This document shows, piece after piece, positions 545 to 63,811 of a stretch of DNA of 64,000 bases. A program made the position numbers and the translations under genes. The stretch covers positions 62,001-126,000 of the forward strand of contig JAEMWC010000358.1 in the NCBI GenBank assembly GCA_016490735.1. Reading direction: 5' to 3'. Numbering within the stretch: the stretch's first letter is position 1; each line of letters starts with the position of its first letter. This stretch comes from Pachyseris speciosa (lineage: Eukaryota; Cnidaria; Anthozoa; Scleractinia; Pachyseridae). The notes beneath the pieces were generated by a model that was given only the letters and a program-made list of their open reading frames with translations, did no database searches and was not told the DNA's origin.

Positions 545-1222
545 ATGGAGCGGTACGGGAACACGGCAGTCCATCTGGAGTTAAATTTTGGTCATGTTAA
601 AAGCTTTCTTCTCGCTGTTGAACTTGCAAACATTCGTATAGACGCTTGTCTTAACATATTAGTTGTTCAGACTTCAAAGACACAAGGTGAATCGACGTTT
701 TCCGATACGTGACAACAGGCATCATTCTTGCTGTTGATATGAGATTTACACTCGAATCACTCGGCCGTGAAAGGTCAAACTCCCTTTGTCTGTAGTCTCT
801 AATTTTTGGCGCTCCCCTCGCGTCGCGTCTCCTCGCAACTTCGCGCGCGCACGTGCCCCCACAATCCATCGCCAAAATTAGAGACTACTCGATGTCTACT
901 GAAGCAGACACGGGGAAACACTGCAGTCCATCTGCCGTTAAGTTTACTCATGTTAAAAACTTTCTTCTCGCCGTTGAACTTCCAAACATTCGCATAGACA
1001 CTTCTCTTAACATATTGTTTGTTCAGACTTCAAAAGCCACAAGATGAATCGACATTTTCCCATACGTGACAACACGCATCACTGTTGTTAAAAATAGTTA
1101 GCGCTTGCGCAGAAACGCCGGAAGTGCCATTTGCGGATGATACTGGACGACGAAAAAGAATTCGAGAACCGTCGGTAGTTCTAGACCCGGGCGCCGCGCG
1201 AGACGCGCGCAGTCCGGGTAAT
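545..1222 (+). repeat. Composite repeat, inverted partner at 63153-63811
   Basis: Two related direct subunits (about 545-715 and 893-1080) flank a 95-bp hairpin MITE. The block then runs to a GC-rich palindrome (CCCGGGCGCCGCGCGAGACG). The whole block recurs reverse-complemented at the right edge of the window. Confidence 0.8.
793..887. mobile_element. 95-bp hairpin MITE inside the composite repeat
   Basis: Ends TAGTCTCTAATTTTTGGCG and CGCCAAAATTAGAGACTA form near-perfect inverted repeats around a CG-rich centre. No target duplication is evident. The same hairpin occurs at 63467-63561. Confidence 0.7.
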
Positions 1223-3944: not shown

Positions 3945-4290
3945 GAAACACAGAGCAGCACAAGGAAATATGGTCACATTTTTTACTCCATTCACAGACC
4001 CAAAAGTTAGAACCAAACTGTACAGCACCACGAGAAAGTACTGCTCAGTAGCTTTCATTTGAATGGTCACACGTTTTGATTCCATCCACAGACTCAAAAG
4101 TTAGAACCAAATTGTACAGCATAATAAACAGCACCACAGGAAAGTACTGCTCAGTAGCTTTCATTTGAATGGTCACACTTTAGGATTTCATCCACACTCA
4201 AAAGTTAGAGCCAAATTGTACAGCATAATAAACAGCACCACAGGAAAGTAATGCTCAGTACTCTTTAAGTTTATAGTTAGTTCCATTTCA
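3945..4290 (+). repeat. ~100-bp tandem repeat array (first locus)
   Basis: About three units containing GTACAGCATAATAAACAGCA, GAAAGTACTGCTCAGTAGC and TTTCATTTGAATGGTCACAC. The same unit occurs at 5436-5700, degenerately at 32735-33000, and reversed at 43330-43815. Confidence 0.85.
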
Positions 4291-5113: not shown

Positions 5114-5435
5114 AGCTTGTGAGTCAGGCTAGAACTGTTTGTTTTTAGTGGAATATCTCGGCTTGCTGTTCAGACATTTTTCGCCACGGAAAACCGAGGC
5201 CAGGGAATCCGTTTTCTCAGGCTTTAACGTCACGGTGCCAGGTGACCCGAAGCGCGATTAAGCTAATCCAGGATAAACATCAACGTCTGGTTTGTACCGA
5301 AGCTAAGAAATTAATCCTCACAGATTCACAGTGCCGCCAAATTTGAGGCGTTCCCAAACAAAAATACAGATAGCCACGAAGAGTAGTTACTCTTTGGGTG
5401 GCCATCTAAGAATATTGTTGAAAGCTAGAGTACCG

Positions 5436-5700
5436 TACCGCATAATAAACAGCACTACAGGAAAGTACTGCTCAGTAGCTTTCATTTGAATGGTCACACG
5501 TTAGGATTTCGTCCACCGACCCAAAAAGTGAGAACCACCTTGTACAGCATAATAAACAGGACCACAGGAAAGTACTGCTCAGTAGCTTTCATTTGAATGG
5601 TCACACGTTAGGATGTCATCCACCGACTCAAGAGTGAGAACCACCTTTTACAGCATAATAAACAGCACCACAGGAAAGTACTGCTCAGTAGCTTTTATTT
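5436..5700 (+). repeat. ~100-bp tandem repeat array (second locus)
   Basis: About 2.5 units of the repeat seen at 3945-4290, with the shared AGTACTGCTCAGTAGCTTTC. The preceding 300 bp (5115-5435) shows no gene. Confidence 0.85.
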
Positions 5701-6465
5701 GAGGGGAGGGGGGTGAACCACGTACAGTGCAATAGACTTCACCACAAGAGATTACTGATCTTTCTTTATGAACTGAATGTTAACATACTGATATACGACC
5801 TACAAACGCAAAAGTGAGAACCACTTCACAGTAAACCTATCGGGTTTTACTTCTAGAAAGCGAAAAATCGAAAACGCCAACGTTTGCTACAGAATTGCAC
5901 TGATAAACAGTCAAATCTGCTTTGACAAAAAACAACCAAAAGTCCAGGATTAGCAGAAAATCGCTTTTTCGTGTAAGAACCCGTTATCTTTGCCTATGAT
6001 AAGCTGCTTTTAATCAATGTTTTACCCAGACCACCTACAATCCCTTGAAGCGACATCAAAACAGGAGCTTTTGTGCCTTTGTCACGCATTAGCCTTGAGT
6101 TGCGTGACTTCTTTATCAACAACAGTCTGCTGTCACGCAAAAACTGTACAAGTCAACATAGTTTGTCTAGCCAATTCGTACACCAGCAGAGCTGATATTC
6201 TATCCAGCGTTAAGAAACAATATTCAAGGCTTCGGTTGAATTCTCTGAACCACGAGATAGTCCCTTGCGCAATCATTTTCTCCCGCGAGAAGTGGCAGAC
6301 AATTATCGCGCGCGCGATTGCGTTTGTTTTTTCAGGTCCTCCCCTTTTCCACGTCTTTTCTCCTTGCGTTGCTTTCTTTAATTACAGGTTCGTGTTTCGC
6401 TCACTTTACTATCCCTAAGAAAAAGAAGAAACTGCTCGTAGTGTAGAATTCTCCCGGCTCGTTTT

Positions 6466-9301: not shown

Positions 9302-34189
<24,888 letters not shown>

Positions 34190-34271
34190 TCATTCCTCTC
34201 TGGGCCTAGCGAGGCCCCAAAGTTTACAAAAAGGCGAAATAGACAGAACCTTTGTAGAGAACTGCTTGAAA

Positions 34272-34502
34272 ATATCACCATCCGAAGCTCATGCCTGCTG
34301 AAGGGAGACTGGATCAGAGAGAACCTCGACTTGGTGAATTGTTTGGGGCATTGTGGGTAAACACGCGTGTTTCCGTGGCTCCCCTGCGTGGAGTCCGCGC
34401 ATGGCATTCCATTTCTCCAAAGAAGATAAGACTTTCGACAGGAAAAACAAATTATTGCCGTGGTGTTAGGATGACAGTATAATAAAATGCATTAACTTTA
34501 GC
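34272..34502. repeat. Repeat A, proximal copy (CUL4 upstream region)
   Basis: A 231-bp segment starting 83 bp upstream of the CUL4 ATG, so probably 5' leader and core promoter. It recurs at 34640-34870 with no difference seen by eye. It contains GCATTGTGGGTAAA and CG-rich stretches but no obvious TATA box. Confidence 0.85.
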
Positions 34503-34642
34503 GAAGGAGATGGACTAGAAGCTCCTGCGATCCCGGCAATATTTTACAGAACACCAGCAGCTGTTACAATCCGATACTTTTTCGGGAAAATATACGAGTA
34601 TAATAGTGTTGTATTTTACTATGTATAGTTGTCTTGTGTATA
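34501..34642. repeat. Segment B inserted between the two A copies
   Basis: 142 bp matching 36698-36839 base for base by eye, including TACGAGTATAATAGTG. It overlaps the left A copy by GC and the right A copy by ATA, two short microhomologies. Confidence 0.8.
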
Positions 34643-34870
34643 TCACCATCCGAAGCTCATGCCTGCTGAAGGGAGACTGGATCAGAGAGAACCTCGACTT
34701 GGTGAATTGTTTGGGGCATTGTGGGTAAACACGCGTGTTTCCGTGGCTCCCCTGCGTGGAGTCCGCGCATGGCATTCCATTTCTCCAAAGAAGATAAGAC
34801 TTTCGACAGGAAAAACAAATTATTGCCGTGGTGTTAGGATGACAGTATAATAAAATGCATTAACTTTAGC
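34640..34870. repeat. Repeat A, distal copy
   Basis: Second copy of the CUL4 upstream segment, in direct orientation and offset by 368 bp from the proximal copy. The short frames inside both copies are identical, consistent with a very recent duplication. Confidence 0.85.
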
Positions 34871-35102
34871 TGGATTATTTGATGGAAGAAGTCCTTAATT
34901 GCAATAACTTGAATAGAAGCCAAGCTTCGAATTTTAATTTCATGTTCAGTTTGGACATCTGACTTTCGCGTGACCCTCGATACTCATCCGATTCTCATAT
35001 AAAAAGCAGCGATAGCACAACATTATCCACGAACTCCAACTGAATAACAGTTGAAGTAGGTATCTTTTCTCCGGTCCCTAATTTCGGTTATTATATTTAA
35101 CA

Positions 35103-35222
35103 ATTAGAATGATTATCAGTGAGCTCGAGATTTCTATCGCGTGATCAGCTGATGCGGGGCGCAGCCCTAATCAGCGATCACGGATAGAAATCGAGAGCGA
35201 GTAATCTAACTGTTTTATTAGT
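35103..35222. mobile_element. Hairpin MITE, TCGATTTCTATC family copy 1
   Basis: GAGATTTCTATCGCGTGATC and GATCACGGATAGAAATCGAG are inverted arms around a GCGGGGCGC centre. Copy 2 is at 61926-62017. Confidence 0.75.
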
Positions 35223-35721
35223 CGTTCAAAACTAAACAACTCAATTATCTAAATCCTCCTCGCAGGCACTTCGAAACGCGAAGAAGCGGCTGGCATTTTG
35301 TTGACAATCGCTACTCACTGTCTATCGCAGAATAGATAGCGAGTAGCGTAGCCAATCAGAGAACGGCATTCGTGATAGAACGCTAGTAGATTTATAATAA
35401 TAAAATTTAAAAAAAAGCTCATCTTTGCTTGTCCCTGAAGCATTGATTATAGGACTTACGGAAGTTTTTTCGTTCTTCAAAATAGTACTTGGGTTTCTAT
35501 TAACGTTCATCAAACAATAAGCAAATTTGGCTCTCATCCAAGATTTGTTGGAAGGAAAGGACCATATAGGTTTGACGTCAGTGTTTCACGTGATCAGCGC
35601 CCATGGTCAAGGTTCAAGGTCCAAGGTCTGTTCTGGTTGCCAAGTACGCAGTCGTCCTGTTCTCCTCAGATTCACAAACTGAGGAGAAATAAATCTTATG
35701 TGCGTTGGTGTTACAGTAAAA

Positions 35722-36535
35722 ACCGTATTTCCTCGAATAAGCGCACGCCTAGTAAGCGCTCTCCCCTGAATAAGCGCCCCCTCCCCTCTCCCTCAGTTTC
35801 TTAAATGGTAGGGATACAAGGAAAAACTGTTTCCATTGTCACTTTATTTGCAATCTTTTAAGCTTCAATTACACCAGCATCAATACATGTAGGAGAAAAG
35901 TCTATTTTCCGTAAGTCCTCTCCAGTTATTTCTATATCCTTGTGCTTGCAGAGTTCTTTTACGTGCACTAGCCAAAATAGTGTTACAGGAAAAACTCAAT
36001 AATCGTCCTCCTCTATCAGGGGAGGCAGCGAGGCCATGCGGTTGGGGCCGACGCTGGACCTGTAATGCGGAAGTCCCGGGTTCAAGTCCCGCTCTGGCGA
36101 GGGTCACGCTTGTAAATAGCCAACTGGTTTGCTCCCCCACCAGTTGGGTTTCTTAACACTGTTACGTTTGTAGGGAGTTTCCTTGCATGGGTACTCACGT
36201 CCCGTTCGTTACTCCCTTTTTGGCTATCCCTACCGTCTTAAATTTATTTTTTTTTTTTCCCCTCACAATTTTGTACGTGTAATTTTTCGTTTATTACTAT
36301 TGTAACTGAGTAGAATGCCAATAAAGCTGTTAAAAAAAAAAAATTATTCATTTCAATTTATTTAAGTGGAATGCCTGTGAACTAAGCTAGCTAAGGCAGC
36401 TAAGTGCATTTAAAAAAAATGCACTGTAAACAAACAAAGCGTTTACATTTTTCAAGTGCTCTCCTTCGTATAAGTGCCCCTCTTTTGGTCGAAATTTTAA
36501 ATAAGCGCCCGGGAGTTTATTCGAGGAAATACGGT
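35722..36535. mobile_element. DNA transposon with ACCGTATTTCCTCGAATAA ends
   Basis: The left end reads ACCGTATTTCCTCGAATAAG and the right end is its complement. Repeated ATAAGCGCCC motifs lie in both arms. A SINE is nested inside. No transposase frame remains. Confidence 0.75.
36021..36343 (+). mobile_element. tRNA-derived SINE nested in the 35722-36535 transposon
   Basis: The head GAGGCAGCGAGGCCATGCGG with B box CCGGGTTCAAGTCCC, body CCACCAGTTGGGTTTCTTAA, and AATAAAG with an A-rich tail. Confidence 0.7.
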
Positions 36536-36697
36536 TGCTCACTTTGGAAATGGCAAACCGCCTGTGATCGAGAGCGCACCGCGGACATATACTGGATAAC
36601 AGTCAAAATCAAATTTGTACATGATTAACTTCAGGATCTCCTTAGTCTCAAAGTTGCGTCAAAAACGGCTAAACGGCTAAACGGCCTAAAAACGGCT

Positions 36698-36839
36698 GCG
36701 AAGGAGATGGACTAGAAGCTCCTGCGATCCCGGCAATATTTTACAGAACACCAGCAGCTGTTACAATCCGATACTTTTTCGGGAAAATATACGAGTATAA
36801 TAGTGTTGTATTTTACTATGTATAGTTGTCTTGTGTATA
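36698..36839. repeat. Segment B, probable donor copy
   Basis: Same 142 bp as 34501-34642. Outside the shared segment the flanks differ at once on both sides, so only this block was copied. Confidence 0.8.
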
Positions 36840-36956
36840 ACTGTTTCTATGTATAACTGTTCCTTCTATGTACAATGCCTGTAATTACCGTGAAGAGTGT
36901 TATAAATTGTTGTTTTCTCAATCAATAGCTAATACCGTTAAGCTCATTAAGAAGTT

Positions 36957-37402
36957 CAGGGGTCCCAACAAGCCAAATCAACCAAAAGCTGTAGAAAGGC
37001 ATTTTTAAGTACCTTATGGTGTTTGAAGTCTGTTTAAAGTGATGTTTTCATTAGCTAGAAGAAGTTCATCTGTTCGGATTCCCTAGCTGAAATTTTAATT
37101 TCCCGAAAATGTTAGGAAACAAAATCTTCCTTTGAGAAAATGCAAGCTGAAATGAACTTTCCACCAACTTTCTAGGGAACTATTTTCTTTCCGAAAATGC
37201 TAGCTGACGTTTTTGACTGCCAAAAACAGCAATTATGACCTTTCCGAAAACCTTAGGGGCTATGATTTCCCAATTGCGAATCTTTTAGGCCACGTTTTAG
37301 TTACAAAAATCCGAGTGCACTCTTTAATCGACGCCGAAAACCCAAGGCGAATTACCCTCCACCGAACAGATATCTACCGAAACTTGTCGTTGGGTGCCCC
37401 TG
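36957..37402 (+). mobile_element. GGGGYMCCCAAC-ended transposon, copy 1 (without insert)
   Basis: About 446 bp matching 41543-42108 in reverse orientation (shared TTCATCTGTTC, GAGAAAATGCAAGCTGAAAT). It keeps the intact site that is interrupted by a MITE in copy 2. Confidence 0.8.
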
Positions 37403-37765
37403 GAAGTTGTTGCCGGTCGTAAAAGGAAGGCTCAAAATTTCACGTGACACGCTTCGTGCAATGTATGAAAAGAATTCCTCGCTCCCAGATCGACTTCGTC
37501 TCCTCTTCCTGAAAGAGCCTGTGGACGAATTAAAAGTTATTCGTCCCAAGTTCCTCGCGCAATCGATAATAAAGGCGCGGTCCTGGATCTCAGAGTGTAA
37601 ACGGTAAATGGCGGTATGGTCACTATAGATACGTTACCATAATGTAAAACTAGGTATGTATGAATGTTGTGCCGCGTAGCACTAGGAACACAACATTCAT
37701 ATGTACCCTTACTTTCTCTTTGCCGCGATTCACCATCCAAAATCGTCCCCGACTTTCTCTGTGCG

Positions 37766-37970
37766 ACCTTGTAGCTCAGTCGGCAGAGTAACGGTAGATC
37801 TAATCCGGAGGTCGTGGGTTCGATTCCCACCGAGGTCAAAAGATTTTTTCTTTACCTCGTGTGGTTCCCTGTTTCCCTTTACTAGGGCTAACGCCCAGTG
37901 GGTTATTCATGGGTTTAAGTAGCACTTTAATTTACACTTCAGAGTTAATTCTGTTCCACTATTTGTAAAA
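37766..37970 (+). mobile_element. tRNA-derived SINE
   Basis: CTTGTAGCTCAGTCGGCAGA (A box) and GGTCGTGGGTTCGATTCCC (B box) fold partly like a tRNA, but the anticodon loop lacks U33. The body AGGGCTAACGCCCAGTGGGT follows. I recognise this as a common coral SINE type. Confidence 0.75.
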
Positions 37971-40413
37971 CTAGGTATACCTATCGATAGAGTGCCAACG
38001 AGACTGAAACACTCAAATCATCTACATATATCCATTCACTGTGATTATTTACAGCTACCGTGAAATGATGACCGACACAACGTACCATGGCTTTGAGTTC
38101 ACAACTTTCACCTACAGTACCGGTTAAAAGTAAGTTGATCCTCGTTCCTCGATTCCTGCGAGTTTCGAGCATCGAGGATCGAGGCTCAGCTATCGAGAAT
38201 CGAGTCGAGGATCGCGTCTCCGAGATAATGAGCTTGTCGCTTGACTGATCACTCGATAGACCTTTCGAGCAAATCGGGATCACATCTTGAAAAGCAACTT
38301 GGAGCAATTACAAAATACTCGTCCACATCGTTTACATATTCCTTCAGCTACTCGAAGGAAGGCAAACGATGTAAGAGTAGTCTTTCAGTACGCGATATGT
38401 TTCTAAAAACGCAAACCTCTTACAACTGACAGATGGGCCGCGATTCGCAGAAATCAACGCTTGAGAAAGAACATTGGCCAAGGACTGACCACACCACTAC
38501 AATATCTCGCAATAAGTAACAAATGTTCGATGAAGAAAACTTGGCCAACCTCTAAAGTTTATCTGAGTGTCGCATGTTTTTGTCAGACACGCATAATTTC
38601 AACATTCGATACGCGCAGGTGTGACCGGTACCGATTAATGTTCACTCTTAATGGTGCTCGTTCGTAACTTTATTTCGTTGAAACAGGGTTTTCTTCGACC
38701 GTTCTTAGGAATAAATCTTACAATGTAACTCCTCCAAACTAGAGACACAAATGTGTGTAATTCGTTATGGTATGCAAAGTTTCTGTTCTCACGCGCGTTG
38801 TCTGTCAAGTCTATTTTTAATTCGATGTTTTCTTTGTGCTATTTTTGGCCGAAGAGTGAAGATCATCTCGGCGACGTTTCTATCCAAATTATACACGCAT
38901 TTCACTTCGGATGTTTCCTCGGAGTTTTTCTAGTGTTCCCATTGAACGTTTGTCAATTTATTTATTTCAAAGGCCTGGAGCGATTTTGATAAGCCACCAT
39001 GTGTTGTTTCAGTCCTCGTGGTTGTTACGTTTATAATTGTAATGAGCGGCTTTGGAAACTTGTTCGATCAACCGCACCAGCCTTTAATTCCTTACGCTTG
39101 CCAAGCGACTACTGGCTAGCGACTACGCTATTCGCCTACTTGTACACTGTGCATTGTCGTCGAGAAATAGGCTGCTAATTCTTGAAATTTTGATCGCTTT
39201 TGATGAGTGTCCGCGATGAACCGCAGCGATCTTGATTCGTTGAACGAACGGCCATACATTGTATGAACGTACATGTAGCATCGGAATTTTTATGCAGAAA
39301 AAAAACACAACGCTGTAACTTCGAATGAAACTGAATGTCTTTTGACCTTGTTTTTTTTAGTGCAGTATCCGATATTTCCTCGAGAAGTACACCGTGTCCT
39401 CAAAACATAAAATGACTTTTGACAGTATTTGACTGCGCTGTCCTTTAGCGTGAATTCGTTGCTTGAGCGGAAACTGTTGTAGTGTCTTTTTGTCCATACA
39501 GAACAACTGTGTCCTTTCCTCAAGAACTCGAAAAGTCTCCAAACAAACGCCGAACAAACGCCTCCAAAAGCCACAGAATCTCAGCGGGCAAAGATACGAA
39601 ACAAGCGGCAACGAAACTGAAGGAACGCTTGTGCGCCCAGTACCGCCTTTTGATTGGTTAACACCAAAATCTAACACGTCTTTTCATTGGTTCCAATGGT
39701 TCCGTCGTTGCAATTGGCTCAAACCAAAGTCTCAGGGGAATCTACATTACATCAGTTTACACTTTTTGAAGCTCGATCGAGAATTTTTCTGCCTATTGCC
39801 ATTTCTTGCGCGGCTCTATTCTGCTGCCGCCTCGCCATCCGAGCGTCTTCGCTCGGATGGCTCGTTGGCAATTATTCATATGATTTCAAGCAATTACCTT
39901 ACCCTTTTTGTAAACCACAACAGGAATGTATGCCTAAAATTACGTGGAATGTTCCAGAAGCTCGTATTCTTGGCCAAGGAAAACGATGCCTTATTACAAA
40001 AATCTCGGTAGTTTCGCGTGATCAACGCCATTGTTAGATTTTATCAGTTCTAGAACTCATTAAGCCCTCCGGCAAAACTCTCTCGTTGTGTTTTTCTCTC
40101 CATCCGTACACTGTTTAATAGCTATGACGAAAGCAGACCAAGCCGGCAGGAATGGAGTTTGTTAAGTTCAGCCTTCGCTTGGAGTGAGGCCTACGACAAT
40201 ATCCACAAAGATTGGATCAAATCTTCAACGTTAGAGCTTTACAGTCTCACATTTGCTTTCTAAGGTCATCAAAAATCCACATATCTAGTTGATTAATTTC
40301 GCTGTGCCTCGGTTTATACCGCTTTCGTTAGCAAATTAACCAGAGCACATTTGACTTCAGCCATTGCGATAACGAGTCTCGAGGATTTTGTTTTGAGTTT
40401 CAAGCGGAGAAAG
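37971..40413. other. No gene resolved; region upstream of the TSR gene
   Basis: Short frames only. A GAGGATCGAG-rich patch lies at 38140-38220 and a perfect hairpin CCATCCGAGCG/CGCTCGGATGG at 39837-39863. CCAAT-like boxes lie at 39652-39715. Confidence 0.4.
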
Positions 40414-40483: not shown

Positions 40484-43400
40484 GTAAGTAAATTTATACT
40501 TGTATTGATTCATTATTTATGTACAAAGGCTAGTTAGCTGGGAATTGTACGGCTTCACTGCATTATAACGAGTGAGATTTCAAGTTATCATACAGCCGCT
40601 TCGTGACAGGCAGTTTAAACTACAGTTTAATGACAACTCTTCCATAACGGAAAGCACGGATAAAGTAAGGTTCTGTCTTAATTTCCGACGGTATTCTAAT
40701 AACCGACAAAGAGCGTTGCTCATACTTAACTATTCATTTCGATTGTATATAATGAACTTGTCATGGATCTGTAAATACAGGTAATTATATATGTGCAGAA
40801 CATGTACCCATATATACTAGTAGTTTTACCTATCCATTGCTAGGGCAGTGCAATAACACTACAATTTAACCCAAATTTAAAAGAAAGTAGGCTACAGTGC
40901 TGTAGGTAATAAATTATATGGCGTTTTTATGAGAAAATGGACTAGAAACAGGAACCAGACGACGTTAATTAAACGTGCGAAGTGATCGAAGTATGCCTTT
41001 TGCATGCTTGCAATACGTCGTAATATAGACTCTCGTTATGCCGTTTTCATTCACTTCTCAATCGAAAACAGTTATTTGAACAGCAACATATTTTAATTCA
41101 CTTATTTCCGCACCTCAACTGATAATTCATCAACTCACCGCTTAGAACGAAGCGAATGGTGGTGGAACGAAATTTCTTATTTTGCCTTAGTACGAATGAA
41201 AAGAAAACGGGATTGTTTTAAATTTGAAAAAAAAAATATTCTTTAAAATTTTAACGCCGGTGTATCAAAGTAAACAACATTAGGCCCTGGCCAAACGCTC
41301 GCGACATTTCAACGAAACATCTTGCAACACTGTTGCATCGTGTTGACGATGTTGTGAAGGGGCCGGTCAAACGCACGCAACATTTCAACCCAACATTTTA
41401 CCGGTTGTCGACGTTTACGTGCCAACACCATACAACATGTTGCAACATATCGCAACAGGGTGGCCAAACATGTGCAACATGTTGTGTTTTGGCGCTTTGA
41501 AATAGCAAATCGACCTAGCACGCATGCCCTAGTGCAACAATGCAGGGGCACCCAACGACAAGTTTCGGTAGATATCTGTTCGTTGGGGGGTCAGTAATTC
41601 TCCTTGCGCTTTCGGCGTCGATTAAAGAGTGCACTCGGATTTTCGTAACTAAGGCCCGTTTCAAACGTCGAACTTCTCATGTGCCGAATCTAATGCAAAT
41701 GAGCGAAAACAATAGATTTTTCTCATTTGCATTAGATTCGGCACATGAGAAGTTCGACGTTTGAAACGGGCCTAAAACGTGGCCTAAAAGATTCGCAATT
41801 GGGAAATGATAGCCCCTAAGGTTTTCGGAGGAGTCGTAATTGCTGTTTTGGGCAGTCAAAAACGTCAGCTAGCATTTTCGGAAAGAAAATAGTTCCCTAG
41901 AAAGTTGGTGGAAAGTTCATTTCAGCTTGCATTTTCTCAAAGGAAGATTTTGTTCCCGAACATTTTCGGGCAATTAAATTTTCAGCTAGGGAATCAGAAC
42001 AGATGAATTTCTTCTAGCTTATGTAAACATCACTTTAAACAGACTTCAAACATCATAAGGCATGCCTTTCTACAGCTTTTGGTTGATTTGGCTCGTTGGG
42101 TGCCCCTGACAATTTTGCGTGAATGTGGCCAAACGAGTACAACATCATGCAACATCCAAAATGTTGCACGAAAAATTTGACCGTTTTCAAATTTCAGCCA
42201 ACACTATCCAACATGTTGCAACATATCGCAACACGGTGGCCAAACGTGTGCAACATGTTGTGCCCAACAATGTTGCAAGATGTTGCGTTGAAATGTTGCG
42301 AGCGTTTGGCCGAGGCTTTAGCCTGCTCCAGGCGTTCAGACTGTGGAGAACGGTAAAAATCGTCGCCTGCGAGAATGGCTTTTCCCGCTCGCTCGCAACA
42401 TTAGCAATTTTCGCTGCTATACCCACAATCTGAACAACTTTAACATGCTAAAATAAAATGGGCTGATCAATTAACAAATTACTCTCCTGATATCTTGTAA
42501 ATTTGGCCAATTACAGTGAAGATGCTGGCTGGAACCTTCCATGTGGTGCTTAGATTCCCGATTTAGTTCGGTCGTTTCAGTTTAACATTATGCCTTACCT
42601 TGTGCCTTATGCCTTGTGCATTATGCCTTACCTTGTGCCTTAACCTTCGTGTCTCTGTAACATCATTGTAAGTTCTAGTTCAGTAGATGTTTCGGTTCTA
42701 GATTCATTATTCTACAGTTTTTTTATATCTTCTTGTTGGCTTGCTTAATCCTTCACATTCACGGAACTGATAATTGCCGGATGAAAACTATAGAGCTATA
42801 TCTTCTACCTTGTTGCAATTAATCGCACTGATAACGCATAAAGTCCACCAAGCCTCGTCGGAAACTGTGATATGGACGGCGCGAAATGAAATTTTGGTCG
42901 GAGGGATGACAAAGAAAGATCAGTCAGTGGTACTGGAGAGGTAACACAGGTATGAATAGCTTCAGGGAAAATTAGAGGATTCGATTCCATCCATTTTTTA
43001 CTAAAAATTATGAAGATCATTTCTATCGGCCGAATAACAGTAAGAATGGGCACAATTTCCTTTGTATTAAATTTTCACAGTGGTTATTTCTTGTCAAACG
43101 GTTGTTTGTAGTACTCATTAATTCTGTGGACGCAATCCTAACATTGTGACCTTTTAGTCACAAACATATTTTGAAATGGTTTTGAACTTATTTCTTCTTG
43201 TCATAATCAGCACAAGGTGTCAGGAGCCTAGAGACTGTGGATGAATTGAAATATGATCTAAATGCGACTATTTACTGAAATGAAGACTACCAAACATTTG
43301 TTTGTTTTCTCTAGTATTACTTTTGAGTCGTTGAATAAAATCGCGAAGTGTGACGATTCAAATGAAAGTTACTGAGCAGTACGTTTCTGTGGCGCTGTTT

Positions 43401-45666
43401 ATTATGCTGTAGTTACTACAAGGTGGTTCTAACTTTTGAGTCTGTGGATGAAATCCTATCGAGTGACCATTCAAATGAAAGCTACTGAGCAGTACTTTCC
43501 TGTGGTGCTGTTTCATGCTGTACAAGGTGGTTCTAACGTTTGAGTCTGAATAAAATCCTAAAGTGTGACCATTCAAATGAAAGCTATTGAGCAGTACTTT
43601 CCTGTGGTGCTGTTTATTGTGCTATACAAGGTGGTACTGACTTTTAAGTCTTTGAATAAAATCGTAAACTGTGACCATTCAAGTTAAAGCTACTGAGCAA
43701 TGTTTTCCTGTGGTGCTGTTTATTATGCTGTACAAGGTGGCTCTAGCTTTTGCGTCTGTGGATGAAATCCTAAAGTGTGACCATTCAAATGAAAGCTACT
43801 GAGCAGTCCTTTTCGTTGGTGCTTTTTGTTACACCTTTCCTAACAACTAGTTTTTGTTATTGATAACAGGTGGGCAATACGTTAGCCCTGGAGCAAATGG
43901 GGTGGATGTTCGAAAAGCTGCAATGGAGAACAGATAAGAACAAGACAATGCATTCACTCGTCAGGGAACTGTGACGAAACGCTAGAAGACAAAAGAGACT
44001 GTGAAAAGGCTGCATGGAATTCCTGGTGTTTCTGTAAGTAGTATTCAACCCACTTTGTGTTGGGAGACGCGATCCATTTGGTCAAAATTCCAGAACTCAA
44101 GTTCGGTTCAAAAGTTTGGTTGTCCATTTTCACGAAATATCGGAATTACCGGAAATTTTCTGTTCCAATTGGCATTTCATTTCGGAGACACACTTGACTC
44201 CCCCAGTTTCCTTTTTCGTCTGATGTCGAAGGCAAGATGGCGGAATCTGCATGCGTTATTCTGATTGAGACGAGACCGGTTCACAGAAGTGGAAAAAGCC
44301 ATTTCTTTTGACACCTGGAAATTTCAGAAATTCAAACCTCAATTTTTGCCCAAATGGATCGCGTCATGGATCTCCATTCTTTGGCTGGTGCTGTGTGGGA
44401 AGCATTTTATGAAATTTTCCTGCGCTTGAAAAGTGTGCTTCTATTCTTTCAGTGCCGGGGTTTGAACCTGGGGAAAATTGGGAGGACGTGGGAAAATCTG
44501 CTCTCGTCCTTACTTTCGAACTGTCAGAAAATGTCATTTATATCCAATAATTGAAACTCTCAAAGCTGAAACATGTAGTTTTTCCGATAAGGAAGTCGAA
44601 ATATATAATGACCAAATTTTTCTCTGTTTGAAACTTTGAAAGCTAAAAGATACAGTCTTTCACTGAATTGGAGGAAGCCCAAAAATAATGATCTATTATA
44701 ATGGAAGGGAGGTTCTCCGAGAATTCATTCGATTCCGTCCATCGCCATTAGACATTTACAGTGCAATTCATATATGAGGAAGCAGCTAAATACAGATTTT
44801 TCAAATTTAGCAAAATCGTCCGTCTTTGGGTAACTGCTCTCTTGATCAGTAGCTGTTAACCTGCTCGATATGAGCTATATTTCAGGAGGATTCTAGTGAG
44901 GAATGCCTGACAAATGAACCACACTGGCTGCTAACGTGGGAGTTACACTTCTTTGTGCGATAGCTATCTCGCCCGCCAATTAGAATTCTTAACCAATTAA
45001 TTGTTATTTTGATCATGAATAATTAACTTCGTCATTCGGCGATGGTAAACGAAGAAAGTTTGTGTTGTTTTGTTTGTCCGAAATATGGTACAAGGACTGA
45101 GTTGCATCGGACCACGGATGATCGCTAGATTTAGTAACTTTTACACTCCATAAAAAGTCAAGATTTGTTTTAAAAAGGCGCAATGCGTTGCGAAAAGGTG
45201 CAAAGATTTATTTGAGCGAAAAACAAAAAAAAAATTGGGGGGCTAGGTACATTTTAAATTGCTGATTCATTGACTAATACCACTTTGTTTATTTTTCCCC
45301 AGCTCTAGTTATGATTATTGCCTTAGCGATTATTGGCGCTGCAATTCTTGCGACAATCATCATCAGCATCATCCTTTGTCGCAGAAATATAAAGGAACGG
45401 GAAGCGCAGAAATTGGAGGAAATCAAGTCAGTACACAGTAAATTTTGTGGCTTTTAAACTAGGGCAAGATCGGTTCGCTTGAGCAATCACTCTTAGAAAA
45501 TATTCTTCCCTCGCTGGAGATCGAAAATGTCTGTTATGTTTCTTTTTCTCTTTCCGGCTCTCACTTTCTATTTACCAATGTCTCTCTGTCTGCCTGTATA
45601 TCAGTCTGTCCGTCTCTCTTTTTCTTCAGTTTGTACCTCTCCTTGTTATCGTTATCGTTATCGTTA

Positions 45667-45724
<58 letters not shown>

Positions 45725-45756
45725 AGTCGTTATCGTTATCGTTATCGTTATCGTTA

Positions 45757-45815
<59 letters not shown>

Positions 45816-46594
45816 ATCGTTGTCGTTGTCGTTATCGTTGTCGTTATCGTTATCGTTATTATTGTTGTTGTTGTTGTTCTCCTTCTTCTTCTTCTTCTTC
45901 TTCTAACGTAAGAAAGAGAGAAAGAAAAACAAGGAAATAAGATTATGTTCAAAGATAAACTGCTAACTTGTAGAGCGATGATAAGTGTAAATGACCCTGA
46001 GTGCGAATTAAGCAAAATCAACTGCTATATTTTCAAGTAGATCTGTGTGTGATTTCGAGAATAACCATATATGATCTCTATATTTTTCTAACTAAAACGT
46101 CGAGCTTAACAGCGCATCCAGGAAAGTTTACAAACTGTGTCAACACCATACCTTCCACATTAGGATAATGGCCGTTGCTTCAATTTTGTTTTCCCAGGAA
46201 TATGACGGAATCTATAGAGCAGAGGTACGACAACGCCATCAGCAGGAACCATTCCTTTCGCCATTTCCCTTCTTTTTCAAGTTTCCCCGACCCTATAAAG
46301 GAACCAGAGGAGATGAATCTCGACAACTTCGCCTTCGATACGGAAAGTTTGAATGAAAGCATCCAATCGATGACTTTAGCGTTCGGCACCGATGAAGAAT
46401 ACCAGCCTGGTAGGGCACCAAAGAAGGAAGAAGAAAGACCCGTTTCGCTCAAGGTTGTTTCTGTCACGGAGACACAGGTTATTGACCGTGATAATGAAGA
46501 CAAACCACAGGGAGATAACCCCCCACCGGTTTATGAGGTTGTTATAAAACCTAAGACAAACGCTCAAGCGCCGATCGTTGATACCGCTATGTAA
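40414..46594 (+). CDS. Single-pass membrane protein with one thrombospondin type-1 repeat (5 exons, 272 aa)
   Basis: Exons 40414-40483, 40585-40664, 43886-44033, 45303-45426 and 46198-46594 chain with phases 1, 0, 1, 2 and give 819 nt. The protein has a signal peptide (1-23), a linker with one N-glycosylation sequon (N41), a TSR (51-99), a transmembrane helix (about 101-125) followed by CRRN and KERE as a stop-transfer, and a 145-residue tail rich in acidic and proline residues with PPVY (250-253). TSRs usually bind matrix, glycans or other receptors, and PPxY motifs bind WW domains such as those of NEDD4-type ligases. So it is probably a cell-surface adhesion or recognition receptor; this is inference. 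No named orthologue is recognised. Exon 2 and the exon 4 donor (AA|GTCAGT) are the weakest parts. Confidence 0.75.
40585..40664 (+). CDS. TSR receptor exon 2: linker
   Basis: Acceptor GATTTCAAG, donor ATAAA|GTAAGG. It enters in phase 1 and leaves in phase 0, exactly what is needed between exons 1 and 3. Encodes IIQPLRDRQFKLQFNDNSS, then ITESTDK. No domain is recognised; the call rests on phase and splice sites. Confidence 0.6.
41543..42108 (-). mobile_element. Middle transposon of the nest (copy 2 of the 36957 element)
   Basis: Ends CAGGGGCACCCAACGA and TCGTTGGGTGCCCCTG. It is the reverse complement of 36957-37402 plus one extra 121-bp insertion. Confidence 0.85.
41652..41772. mobile_element. 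Innermost MITE: near-perfect hairpin at a TA site
   Basis: Arms of about 50 bp (GGCCCGTTTCAAACGTCGAA and GCCGAATCTAATGCAAATGA) are perfectly inverted around an 18-nt loop. Compared with the uninterrupted copy 1 site GTAACTAAAACGTGG, the insertion duplicated TA, as Tc1/mariner-type elements do. Confidence 0.85.
43330..43815 (-). repeat. ~100-bp tandem repeat array, reversed (fourth locus, TSR gene intron 2)
   Basis: Five units with GAAAGCTACTGAGCAGTACT, TTCCTGTGGTGCTGTTTATT and GAAATCCTAAAGTGTGACC, opposite in orientation to the arrays at 3945 and 5436. It ends 70 bp before the TSR-domain exon. Confidence 0.88.
43886..44033 (+). CDS. TSR receptor exon 3: thrombospondin type-1 repeat
   Basis: Encodes PWSKWGGCSKSCNGEQIRTR and on to NSWCF. 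All six TSR cysteines are present (58, 62, 72, 79, 89, 98), with the WSKW tryptophans and the R-T-R strand. WxxW and WxxC are C-mannosylation contexts, and CSKSC fits the CxxS/TC O-fucose consensus. The acceptor is CGTTAG right after an in-frame stop. The donor TTCT|GTAAGT is strong, phase 1. Confidence 0.85.
44065..44366. mobile_element. ~300-bp transposon (TSR gene intron 3)
   Basis: GACGCGATCCATTTGGTCAA and CCCAAATGGATCGCGTC are inverted termini. The centre has GGCAAGATGGCGGAATC but no long frame. Confidence 0.7.
45125..45256. mobile_element. Transposon family F fragment (TSR gene intron 3)
   Basis: AAAAAGTCAAGATTTG, AAAGGTGCAAAGATTTATTT and a decayed end GGGGGGCTAGGTACATTTTA match the right arm of family F. 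Confidence 0.6.
45303..45426 (+). CDS. TSR receptor exon 4: transmembrane helix
   Basis: Acceptor TTTTTCCCCAG. Encodes LVMIIALAIIGAAILATIII, then SIILCRRN and a charged juxtamembrane helix with KEREAQKLEE. It enters in phase 1, as exon 3 leaves. The donor AA|GTCAGT is non-optimal, but it is the choice that reads into the long open frame of exon 5. Confidence 0.8.
45646..45902. repeat. GTTATC/GTTGTC hexanucleotide and GTT/CTT repeats (TSR gene intron 4)
   Basis: About 35 hexamer units alternate in blocks of GTTATC and GTTGTC, then GTT and CTT runs. Long frames here are low-complexity artefacts. Confidence 0.92.
46198..46594 (+). CDS. TSR receptor exon 5: cytoplasmic tail and stop
   Basis: Acceptor TTTTGTTTTCCCAG. 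The open frame of 131 codons ends with TAA at 46592-46594. The tail is polar and acidic (LDNFAFDTESLNESIQSM) with a KKEEER patch, NPPPVYEVV holding a PPxY motif, and C-terminal VDTAM. Confidence 0.82.
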
Positions 46595-49644: not shown

Positions 49645-49759
49645 TAGTCTCCTTTGCAGCCGCTCGCGCAGAAGTCACGCAATGCTCCTCGTCACCACGC
49701 GTGGGGGCAAGGCAAGAAGCGTTGCGTGACTTCGGCCCGAGCGGCTGCAAAGGAGACTA
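49645..49759. mobile_element. 115-bp MULE-like MITE with 9-bp target duplication
   Basis: Termini TAGTCTCCTTTGCAGCCGCT and AGCGGCTGCAAAGGAGACTA, flanked by GCGGTTTAT on both sides (49636-49644, 49760-49768). It shares its end sequence with the 1146-bp element at 54062. Confidence 0.85.
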
Positions 49760-50885: not shown

Positions 50886-51033
50886 TAGTAACGTCTGCGA
50901 AGCAGCGCCGAATTCATTGTTTTGTGTACCAGTATTTGAGCACGCGCTGTACACGCAACGATTGACCCCGTGTACTTAAATTCTGGTACACAGAACAAGG
51001 AATTTGACGCTGCTTCGCAGACGTTAACAACTG
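50886..51033. mobile_element. Hairpin MITE with CGTCTGCGAAGCAGCG ends
   Basis: GTTAGTAACGTCTGCGAAGC and GCTTCGCAGACGTTAACAAC are inverted. Internal GTGTACCAGTATTTGAG pairs with TTAAATTCTGGTACAC. Confidence 0.8.
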
Positions 51034-54061: not shown

Positions 54062-55207
54062 TAGTCTCCTACGCAGCCGTTCTTTGTCTCGTCACGTAAC
54101 GCTCCTCGCCACTAAAGGCTGCAGAAAACCGAACCACATTCCTTTCCCGACTATAAGCCAATCAGGAGCAGCCTTCCATTATCTGGAAGGTGTACGCGCC
54201 AATTCTTCAGTTCGGCGTACATCCAATCACAGCCTAGTTTATATCGGTGTCCAGCGTGCGCTAACAATGGACTACAGTGGAGTGATGGGAAACGGTTAGC
54301 GTTTTGTTTACGTTTTTACTAGGATATTAGATTAGATCTTTACCAGTAACTGCACTTGACTTTGTACCCGAGTAGACGAGTTTGGTGTTGAGGTTAATCG
54401 TGGACGAAATGAATGTGACAATTTTTTCGGGACTTGTCATATTTTGATTTGGTAATACATTCAACACGAGATTGTAGGCCGCGTGTCTTTGAATCGGATA
54501 TAGGAAGCCAGGAACGTAAGTCATAGGCTCCCTAGTCCCGCTTTTAGGAGTCAATAGGAGAAGAAATACGAGCGCTAGCTTTGCCTTTGCCAAATTACAG
54601 GGATTTAGATGCTTTCGCTCGGTCAGTCACGGAAACATTTTCGCGGACAGTCTCTTTATCGGGAATATTTCGTATCTCTTCTGTAGCTCGTAGGAATCGC
54701 TTTGCTCTTGGAGGTTCCCTTTTACTGAAGACTTCCTCTTTCTCGTTGAATTTCTTTTTACGAAGCCCGTTGGAACTTTGTCAACCGCTTGTAGCAAACA
54801 TTTCTGGGCTATATTACAGAATAGCCGGCCACATCATTCGCATATATCGTCCTCTGCAAATGAACAATTCGCTGCTGTTTGAAAAACACCTCACATCCAC
54901 AACGATTGAATGATTTGTTGACAATTGAGTGAGCTTTTGTCTGTATGAGTATTTATTGTGATTTTCCAACGGCGATGATCAAGTAAAACACTAGGAATTG
55001 TTCCATTCGTGACCAGAGTCCGTGACATCTCTGACAGAATGAAAAGCATGCTGTTTCTTCTGACGTCATTGTCATTTTTGTGATACATGATCGGTTAATT
55101 CGTTAGACCGCAAAAACAAAGGGAAAGGAATGTGGTTCGGTTTTCAGCGGCCGTTAGTGGCGAGAAGCGTTGCGTGACGAGACAAAAAACGGCTGCGTAG
55201 GAGACTA
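54062..55207. mobile_element. 1146-bp Mutator-like element with ~87-bp inverted ends and 9-bp target duplication
   Basis: Ends TAGTCTCCTACGCAGCCGTT and AACGGCTGCGTAGGAGACTA continue inward as inverted repeats of about 87 bp (to CCACATTCCTTTCC). GACTTTTAA flanks both sides (54053-54061, 55208-55216). The interior has no transposase but holds gene-like pieces. Confidence 0.85.
54595..54780 (-). pseudogene. Charged open frame inside the MULE-like element
   Basis: 61 codons rich in K, R and E (KKKFNEKEEVFSKREPPRAK, then RFLRATEEIRNIPDKETVRE), bounded by TGA upstream and TAA at 54597-54595. Composition looks coding-like. A second frame just downstream (54593-54327) begins with a hydrophobic AKLALVFLLLL stretch. 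No family is recognised. It may be captured gene fragments or chance. Confidence 0.3.
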
Positions 55208-63152: not shown

Positions 63153-63811
63153 TAATTACCCGGGCTGCGCGCGTCTCGCGCGGCGCCCGGGTCTTAAACT
63201 ACCGACGATTATTCTTTTTCGTCGTCGAGTATCATCCACAAATGGCACTTCCGGCGTTTCTGCGCAAGCGCTAACTATTTTTAACAACAGTGATGCGTGT
63301 TGTCACGTACGGGAAAATGTCGATTCATCTTGTGGCTTTTGAAGTCTGAACAAACAATATGTTAAGAGAAGTGTCTATGCGAATGTTTGCAAGTTCAACG
63401 GCGAGAAGAAAGCTTTTAACATGAGTAAACTTAATGGCAGATGGACTGCTTCAGGAGATTGCGAGTAGTCTCTAATTTTGGCGACGGATTTTGGGGCCAC
63501 GTGCGCGCGCGAAGTTGCGAGGAGACGCGACGCGAGGGGAGCGCCAAAAATTAGAGACTACAGACAAAGGGAGTTTGACCTTTCCCGGCCGAGTGATTCG
63601 GAAGTGTAAATCTCATATCAACAGCAAGAATGATGCCTGTTGTCACGTATTGGAAAACGTCGATTCACCTTGTGTCTTTGAAGTCTGAACAACTAATATG
63701 TTAAGAGAAGTGTCTATACGAATGTTTGCAAGTTCAACAGCGAGAAGAAAGCTTTTAACATGACCAAAATTTAACTCCAGATGGATTGCCGCCGTGTTCC
63801 CCGTATCGGGT
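63153..63811 (-). repeat. Composite repeat, inverted copy of 545-1222
   Basis: Reverse complement of the left-edge block: the GC palindrome first, then the CACTTCCGGCGTTTCTGCGC stretch, two direct subunits (ATATGTTAAGAGAAGTGTCT) and the hairpin at 63467-63561. Small differences throughout. Confidence 0.8.

Follow-up and report, generated by a model that had tools for sequence, protein, structure and literature searches.

An A-B-A rearrangement beside CUL4 in the coral Pachyseris speciosa that fits a single event with two template switches

Results

An A-B-A structure upstream of CUL4

In the window (the whole 64,000-nucleotide stretch of Pachyseris speciosa DNA analysed here, C358:62001-126000 on contig C358), a 231-bp segment (A) stands on both sides of a 142-bp segment (B) next to the start of a CUL4 gene, and B recurs 2.2 kb away. 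What kind of mutation produced this arrangement, and in how many steps? The features on which the analysis rests are as follows.

30834–31106, minus strand: CUL4 exon 2, joined with exon 1 for the cullin match
33829–34189, minus strand: CUL4 coding exon 1, in the open frame 33791–34189; splice site placed by eye
34272–34502: A1, gene-proximal copy of the 231-bp segment, identical to A2 at 231 of 231 bases; its gene side is ancestral
34501–34642: B, 142-bp copied segment flanked by A1 and A2, identical to 36698–36839 at 142 of 142 bases
34501–34502: joint 1, end of A to start of B, 2-bp overlap GC
34640–34642: joint 2, end of B to start of A, 3-bp overlap ATA
34640–34870: A2, gene-distal copy of the 231-bp segment, placed by its identity to A1
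34871–36697: copy-neutral spacer from A2 to the source of B; 1,827 bp, single, absent between the A copies
36698–36839: donor (source) copy of B

The first-pass annotation had described two perfect repeat pairs joined at GC and ATA. Aligning the three segments, the check it proposed, confirmed the A-B-A structure: both pairs are without any difference, and the two microhomologies are as described, base for base. Its estimate of ~2.2 kb for the origin of B is refined to 2,197 bp between the starts of the two B copies, across the 1,827-bp spacer. The overall layout is A-B-A-spacer-B, with A present twice, the spacer once and B twice. A1 and A2 start 368 bp apart, which is also the net gain in length, and they are separated by 137 bp of B, so that they do not abut as in a simple tandem duplication. 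The sequence CTTGnnnATA is common to both parents at joint 2. The length and identity of the matches rule out a chance origin.

The CUL4 ATG lies at 34187–34189 on the minus strand, and A1 begins 83 bp upstream of it, as first annotated. The gene assignment also stands: translated exons 1 and 2 match structures of cullin-4B and cullin-4A in the PDB, the best match being cullin-4B (E 6.6e-29). A Pfam scan of six open reading frames around the structure, CUL4 exon 1 included, detected no family with an E value of 0.1 or lower.

Copies of A and B in the window and the genome

Self-comparison of the window (blastn, dust on, E up to 1e-5) listed only two pairs at 100% identity, the A pair and the B pair, and the bases flanking each overlap differ immediately. 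Short-word blastn of the window gave no additional copy of either segment. The 599-bp stretch spanning A-B-A was then compared with the genome (983,672,442 bases in 2368 contigs) by a search that skips very common words, for which repeat counts are lower bounds. It matched five places: itself, the source of B, and one place each on contigs C27, C1798 and C41, where the right 84 bp of B alone match at 76–81% identity. By this search, with its lower-bound counts, A occurs at two places only and full-length B at one place besides the insert; no second haplotype of A or of the locus was found.

Across C358:1-200000, megablast at word 24 listed, besides these two, only three pairs of at least 40 bp at 100% identity, all of 41–47 bp. 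Thirteen spaced direct pairs were listed in C358:1-250000, several of them rows from the same places and one the B pair of this locus. The whole gap was matched elsewhere at 100% in one of them, the present A pair; in the next best, which belongs to an older array, 0.96 of the gap was matched at 95.5% identity, and in the remaining 11 pairs 0.55 or less. With 250 kb out of 984 Mb sampled, and the prompting locus among them, no rate follows from these pairs. A second candidate of similar order, C358:238654-239868 (95.5%), was rejected because it sits in an older array with many copies.

Direction of copying of B

Two further features at the right-hand copy of B bear on which copy is the source.

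36692–36707, plus strand: ACGGCTGCGAAGGAGA, the probable terminus of an old repeat, within which B starts
36756–36861, plus strand: stretch of an old dispersed repeat family that spans the right edge of the B source, from the C27, C1798 and C41 alignments

With the source region as query, C27 matches 36756–36861 and both C1798 and C41 match 36756–36857 (alignments of 103–107 bp, 78.6–83.2% identity), and the right edge of B lies at 36839. Past that edge the source and the three older copies continue together in the alignment, whereas the insert turns into A. The C1798 and C41 copies are alike there and may represent one event. At the left edge, ACGGCTGCGAAGGAGA has seven matches in the window at three or fewer mismatches, the 36692 site included, where 0.23 are expected; its outer six bases are present at the source only and are missing at the insert. 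Since the repeat homology runs past the right edge of B at 36698–36839, and only there are the outer six bases of ACGGCTGCGAAGGAGA found, the comparison clearly indicates 36698 as the source and 34501 as the copy.

Other features lie near the source. An inverted repeat of 346 bp, 92% alike (36956–37300 and 41772–42109), starts ~120 bp to its right, and a tRNA-Arg (TCT) gene (37765–37838) lies ~0.9 kb to its right; in an Rfam search of 34000–38000 at gathering thresholds, this one tRNA was found and nothing else. Inverted repeats of 27 nt, 89% complementary, at 35721–35747 and 36510–36536 in the spacer enclose ~0.8 kb and are possibly a MITE. Elsewhere in the window, ends resembling ACGGCTGCGAAGGAGA with one to three mismatches occur on palindromic or paired sequences at 49648–49756, 50891–51024, 54065–54080 and 55189–55204, which probably represent at least one repeat family.

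The gene-proximal part of A is an old neighbour of CUL4

When the open frame that spans A1 and the flank of CUL4 was used as a protein query, one match came back, P0001. As a query, P0001 found itself, P0002 and P0003, all from ena or lgn contigs; P0002 and P0003 carry the CUL4 N-terminus in frame. The relatives' proteins were back-translated with degenerate codons before alignment. All three align collinearly, without a gap the size of B, P0001 to 34405–34190, P0002 to 34369–34191 and P0003 to 34313–34191.

The upstream part of P0001 scored 33.3 against A (maximum of 60 shuffles of A, 28.6; maximum of 40 shuffles in an earlier run, 22.9), and that of P0002 scored 31.3 (maximum of 60 shuffles, 19.8). 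Against B the same parts scored 14.3 and 13.8, and against the right flank of A2 16.5 and 17.6, for P0001 and P0002 respectively. P0003, with 30 residues upstream, gave no clear homology to A (17.8; shuffle maximum, 19.7). In terms of degenerate codons, P0001 and P0002 both contain a stretch compatible with ACCCACAAT. Because the upstream parts of P0001 and P0002 exceed all shuffles of A, the gene-proximal part of A beside CUL4 is the old arrangement in two of the three relatives tested. None of the three aligned with A distal to 34405. The open frame that spans A2 and B (34515–34859, minus strand) served as a protein query for other occurrences of the derived junction and gave no candidate, which says little, the frame being short and probably non-coding.

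Microhomology at the joints and age of the copies

For random joints in this neighbourhood, the probability of an overlap of at least 2 bp is 0.168 and of at least 3 bp 0.059. The observed pair of 2 and 3 bp has a chance of about 0.016 jointly, and a sum of 5 or more has a chance of 0.034. Similarity in the 22 bp around joint 1 is unremarkable (7/22, P 0.33) and around joint 2 marginal (10/22, P 0.04). These values suggest, only weakly, that the microhomologies are non-random.

None of 368 compared sites differs between copies (95% upper limit 0.81%), which supports the very recent age first proposed for the structure, and gene conversion could be another cause of the likeness. As the A pair and the B pair are both without differences, both joints can share one recent age.

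A probable single event with two template switches

We infer that the A-B-A structure is probably the scar of a single episode of DNA repair or replication in which the template was switched twice, a reading drawn from the sequence and from comparison with rearrangements described elsewhere. A strand growing in the plus direction would have copied A through ...TTTAGC, jumped 1.8 kb forward at the 2-bp GC match and copied 142 bp of B. It would then have jumped 2.2 kb back to the start of A at the 3-bp ATA match and copied onward, A once more, the spacer, and B once more, giving A-B-A-spacer-B. The strand could have come from a stalled fork (FoSTeS/MMBIR) or from a broken end in synthesis-dependent strand annealing; the product would be the same.

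The locus resembles DUP-NML-DUP rearrangements by FoSTeS/MMBIR in having two direct duplications around a copy-neutral interval, with joints that run from the end of segment 1 to the start of segment 2 and from the end of segment 2 to the start of segment 1 (PMC6902434). In the PLP1-locus cohort as described there, the DUP-NML-DUP array pattern was seen in 9 of 50 patients; five of these nine array-defined cases had an inversion signal and four had directly oriented duplications, three of them with the joint topology found here (PMC6902434). One of the three, BAB8928, has microhomology at both joints. The second combines an Alu-Alu joint with a 3-bp insertion and the third has 38- and 182-bp insertions from six switches, so that two of the three are less clean than BAB8928, which weighs against the single event (PMC6902434). 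Microhomology of 2–9 bp was reported at 15 of 57 join-points in that cohort, compared with 2 and 3 bp at the coral joints (PMC6902434). The scales differ greatly: the coral segments are 231 and 142 bp around an interval of 1.8 kb, whereas the human intervals span 3,084–7,863 kb in three patients (PMC6902434). The material differs as well, the human study having worked on patients and the coral single event being our interpretation of an assembly (PMC6902434).

The insert also resembles the proximal capture of repair-mediated duplications. Captured proximal DNA in human has a median length of 147 bp and a maximum of 619 bp, with the donor within 5 kb at an average distance of 1.2 kb (PMC2671141). 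The coral insert of 142 bp lies within the 50–619 bp of that class, its source is 2,197 bp away and its one other place in the genome search, and its joints share 2–3 bp. Unlike the reported cases, which come from a catalogue of vertebrates, the coral locus has a flanking duplication of 231 bp rather than 4–21 nt (PMC2671141). In C. elegans helq-1 mutants, tandem duplications arise from aborted homologous repair and are joined by polymerase theta; their sizes of ~100 bp to 10 kb and their joints with polymerase-theta hallmarks are a likeness (PMC8654963). They differ in their mutant background, and the coral insert is a single, clean 142-bp piece that originated 2.2 kb away (PMC8654963).

Alternative histories

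The strongest rival, which the first-pass annotation had not considered, takes two events: a tandem duplication of the 2,200-bp A-spacer-B unit (3-bp ATA overlap, 2,197 bp net), followed by a 1,829-bp internal deletion in the first copy with its joint at GC, leaving A and B. The outcome would be equivalent if a normal allele had exchanged unequally with an allele that lacked the spacer. Applied to the window pieces by a script, this history rebuilds 34000–37200 exactly; it needs no coincidence of breakpoints and uses only common kinds of mutation. It does place two structural changes at one locus while none of the 368 sites changed, and its intermediate, the full-duplication allele, was not found in the genome search, where A is at two places only. 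We regard it as a serious though distinctly less probable account. The sequence of one individual fits both histories, and we prefer the single event on grounds of parsimony and because of the human cases.

The initial proposal of template switching fits and is retained, for its agreement with the human joint topology, but its case against ordinary duplication was too strong, as a tandem duplication plus a deletion gives the same letters. Joints that share only 2–3 bp do not provide homology of usable length for unequal crossing-over between repeats.

Alternatively, a staggered double-strand break with nicks 231 bp apart could have been filled in at both ends, giving two copies of A that were joined through a 142-bp patch from 2.2 kb away. 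Fill-in at breaks with overhangs does make tandem duplications, as reported for 43-bp overhangs (PMC8355091), and the insert size and donor distance are those of repair-mediated duplications. At 231 bp, the flanking duplication greatly exceeds the 4–21 nt given for that class (PMC2671141), and we consider this origin improbable.

An assembly or amplification artefact is more doubtful still. The locus is known here from the assembly alone, with no second haplotype found in the genome search; we know of no assembly error that yields two exact joints around a nearby-copied segment. Such a configuration is a known repair pattern (PMC2671141, PMC6902434).

An origin of B as a transposon or retrocopy with a target-site duplication, for which the three older relatives of its right 84 bp might speak, is rejected as exceedingly improbable: the many copies with terminal repeats that such an element should show were looked for in the genome, and two full copies only were found (repeat counts being lower bounds), with no multi-copy unit with constant ends, and the ends of B match no visible element end, its edges lying inside other repeats. 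To our knowledge, a target duplication of 231 bp is also outside the range of known transposons. The original verdict against transposition is therefore upheld.

A coral example of a known mutation class

Mutations of the class to which the single event with two template switches would belong are known mainly from human patients and vertebrates. The A-B-A locus is a new example of this known class, clean, recent and polarised, from a coral, and carries the DUP-NML-DUP architecture at a scale of a few hundred bases. Among titles and abstract starts of open-licence papers on corals, covering 10 of 109 matches and 8 of 8, this class of event was not seen. An ordinary variant caller would probably report the structure as a plain insertion.

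Possible consequences for CUL4

An effect of the doubled stretch on CUL4 transcription, put by the first-pass annotation as a possible change in promoter dose or spacing, is possible, because the stretch adjoins the CUL4 start and is partly conserved. For the same reasons (the stretch adjoining the CUL4 start is doubled, and is partly conserved in relatives) the locus offers a ready test of how small complex events bear on regulation. On the CUL4 strand A1 holds seven ATGs, two of which share a frame without a stop codon up to the limit of the stretch examined; that limit falls within the CUL4 exon, and the frame is not that of CUL4. Transcripts starting in A2 would carry further ATGs beyond those of A1. 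A more far-reaching proposal is that the distal A serves as a second CUL4 start region, from which longer transcripts would run through B and A1 and gain upstream reading frames, the allele still segregating between coral lineages. We consider this a long shot; if true, it would be a dated, base-resolved regulatory change made by template switching.

Other repeats in the window

Farther from the locus, an inverted repeat of ~670 bp, 92% alike, lies near the two ends of the window (557–1222 and 63155–63801, ~62 kb apart). A tandem repeat of ~107 bp is similar in three arrays (3970–4260, 5435–5702 and 43319–43831), one of them inverted and ~38 kb away. A purine-rich AGGG/AAGG tract of 1.1 kb occupies 11978–13123, and a GTTGTC hexamer array of 38.8 copies occupies 45645–45877.
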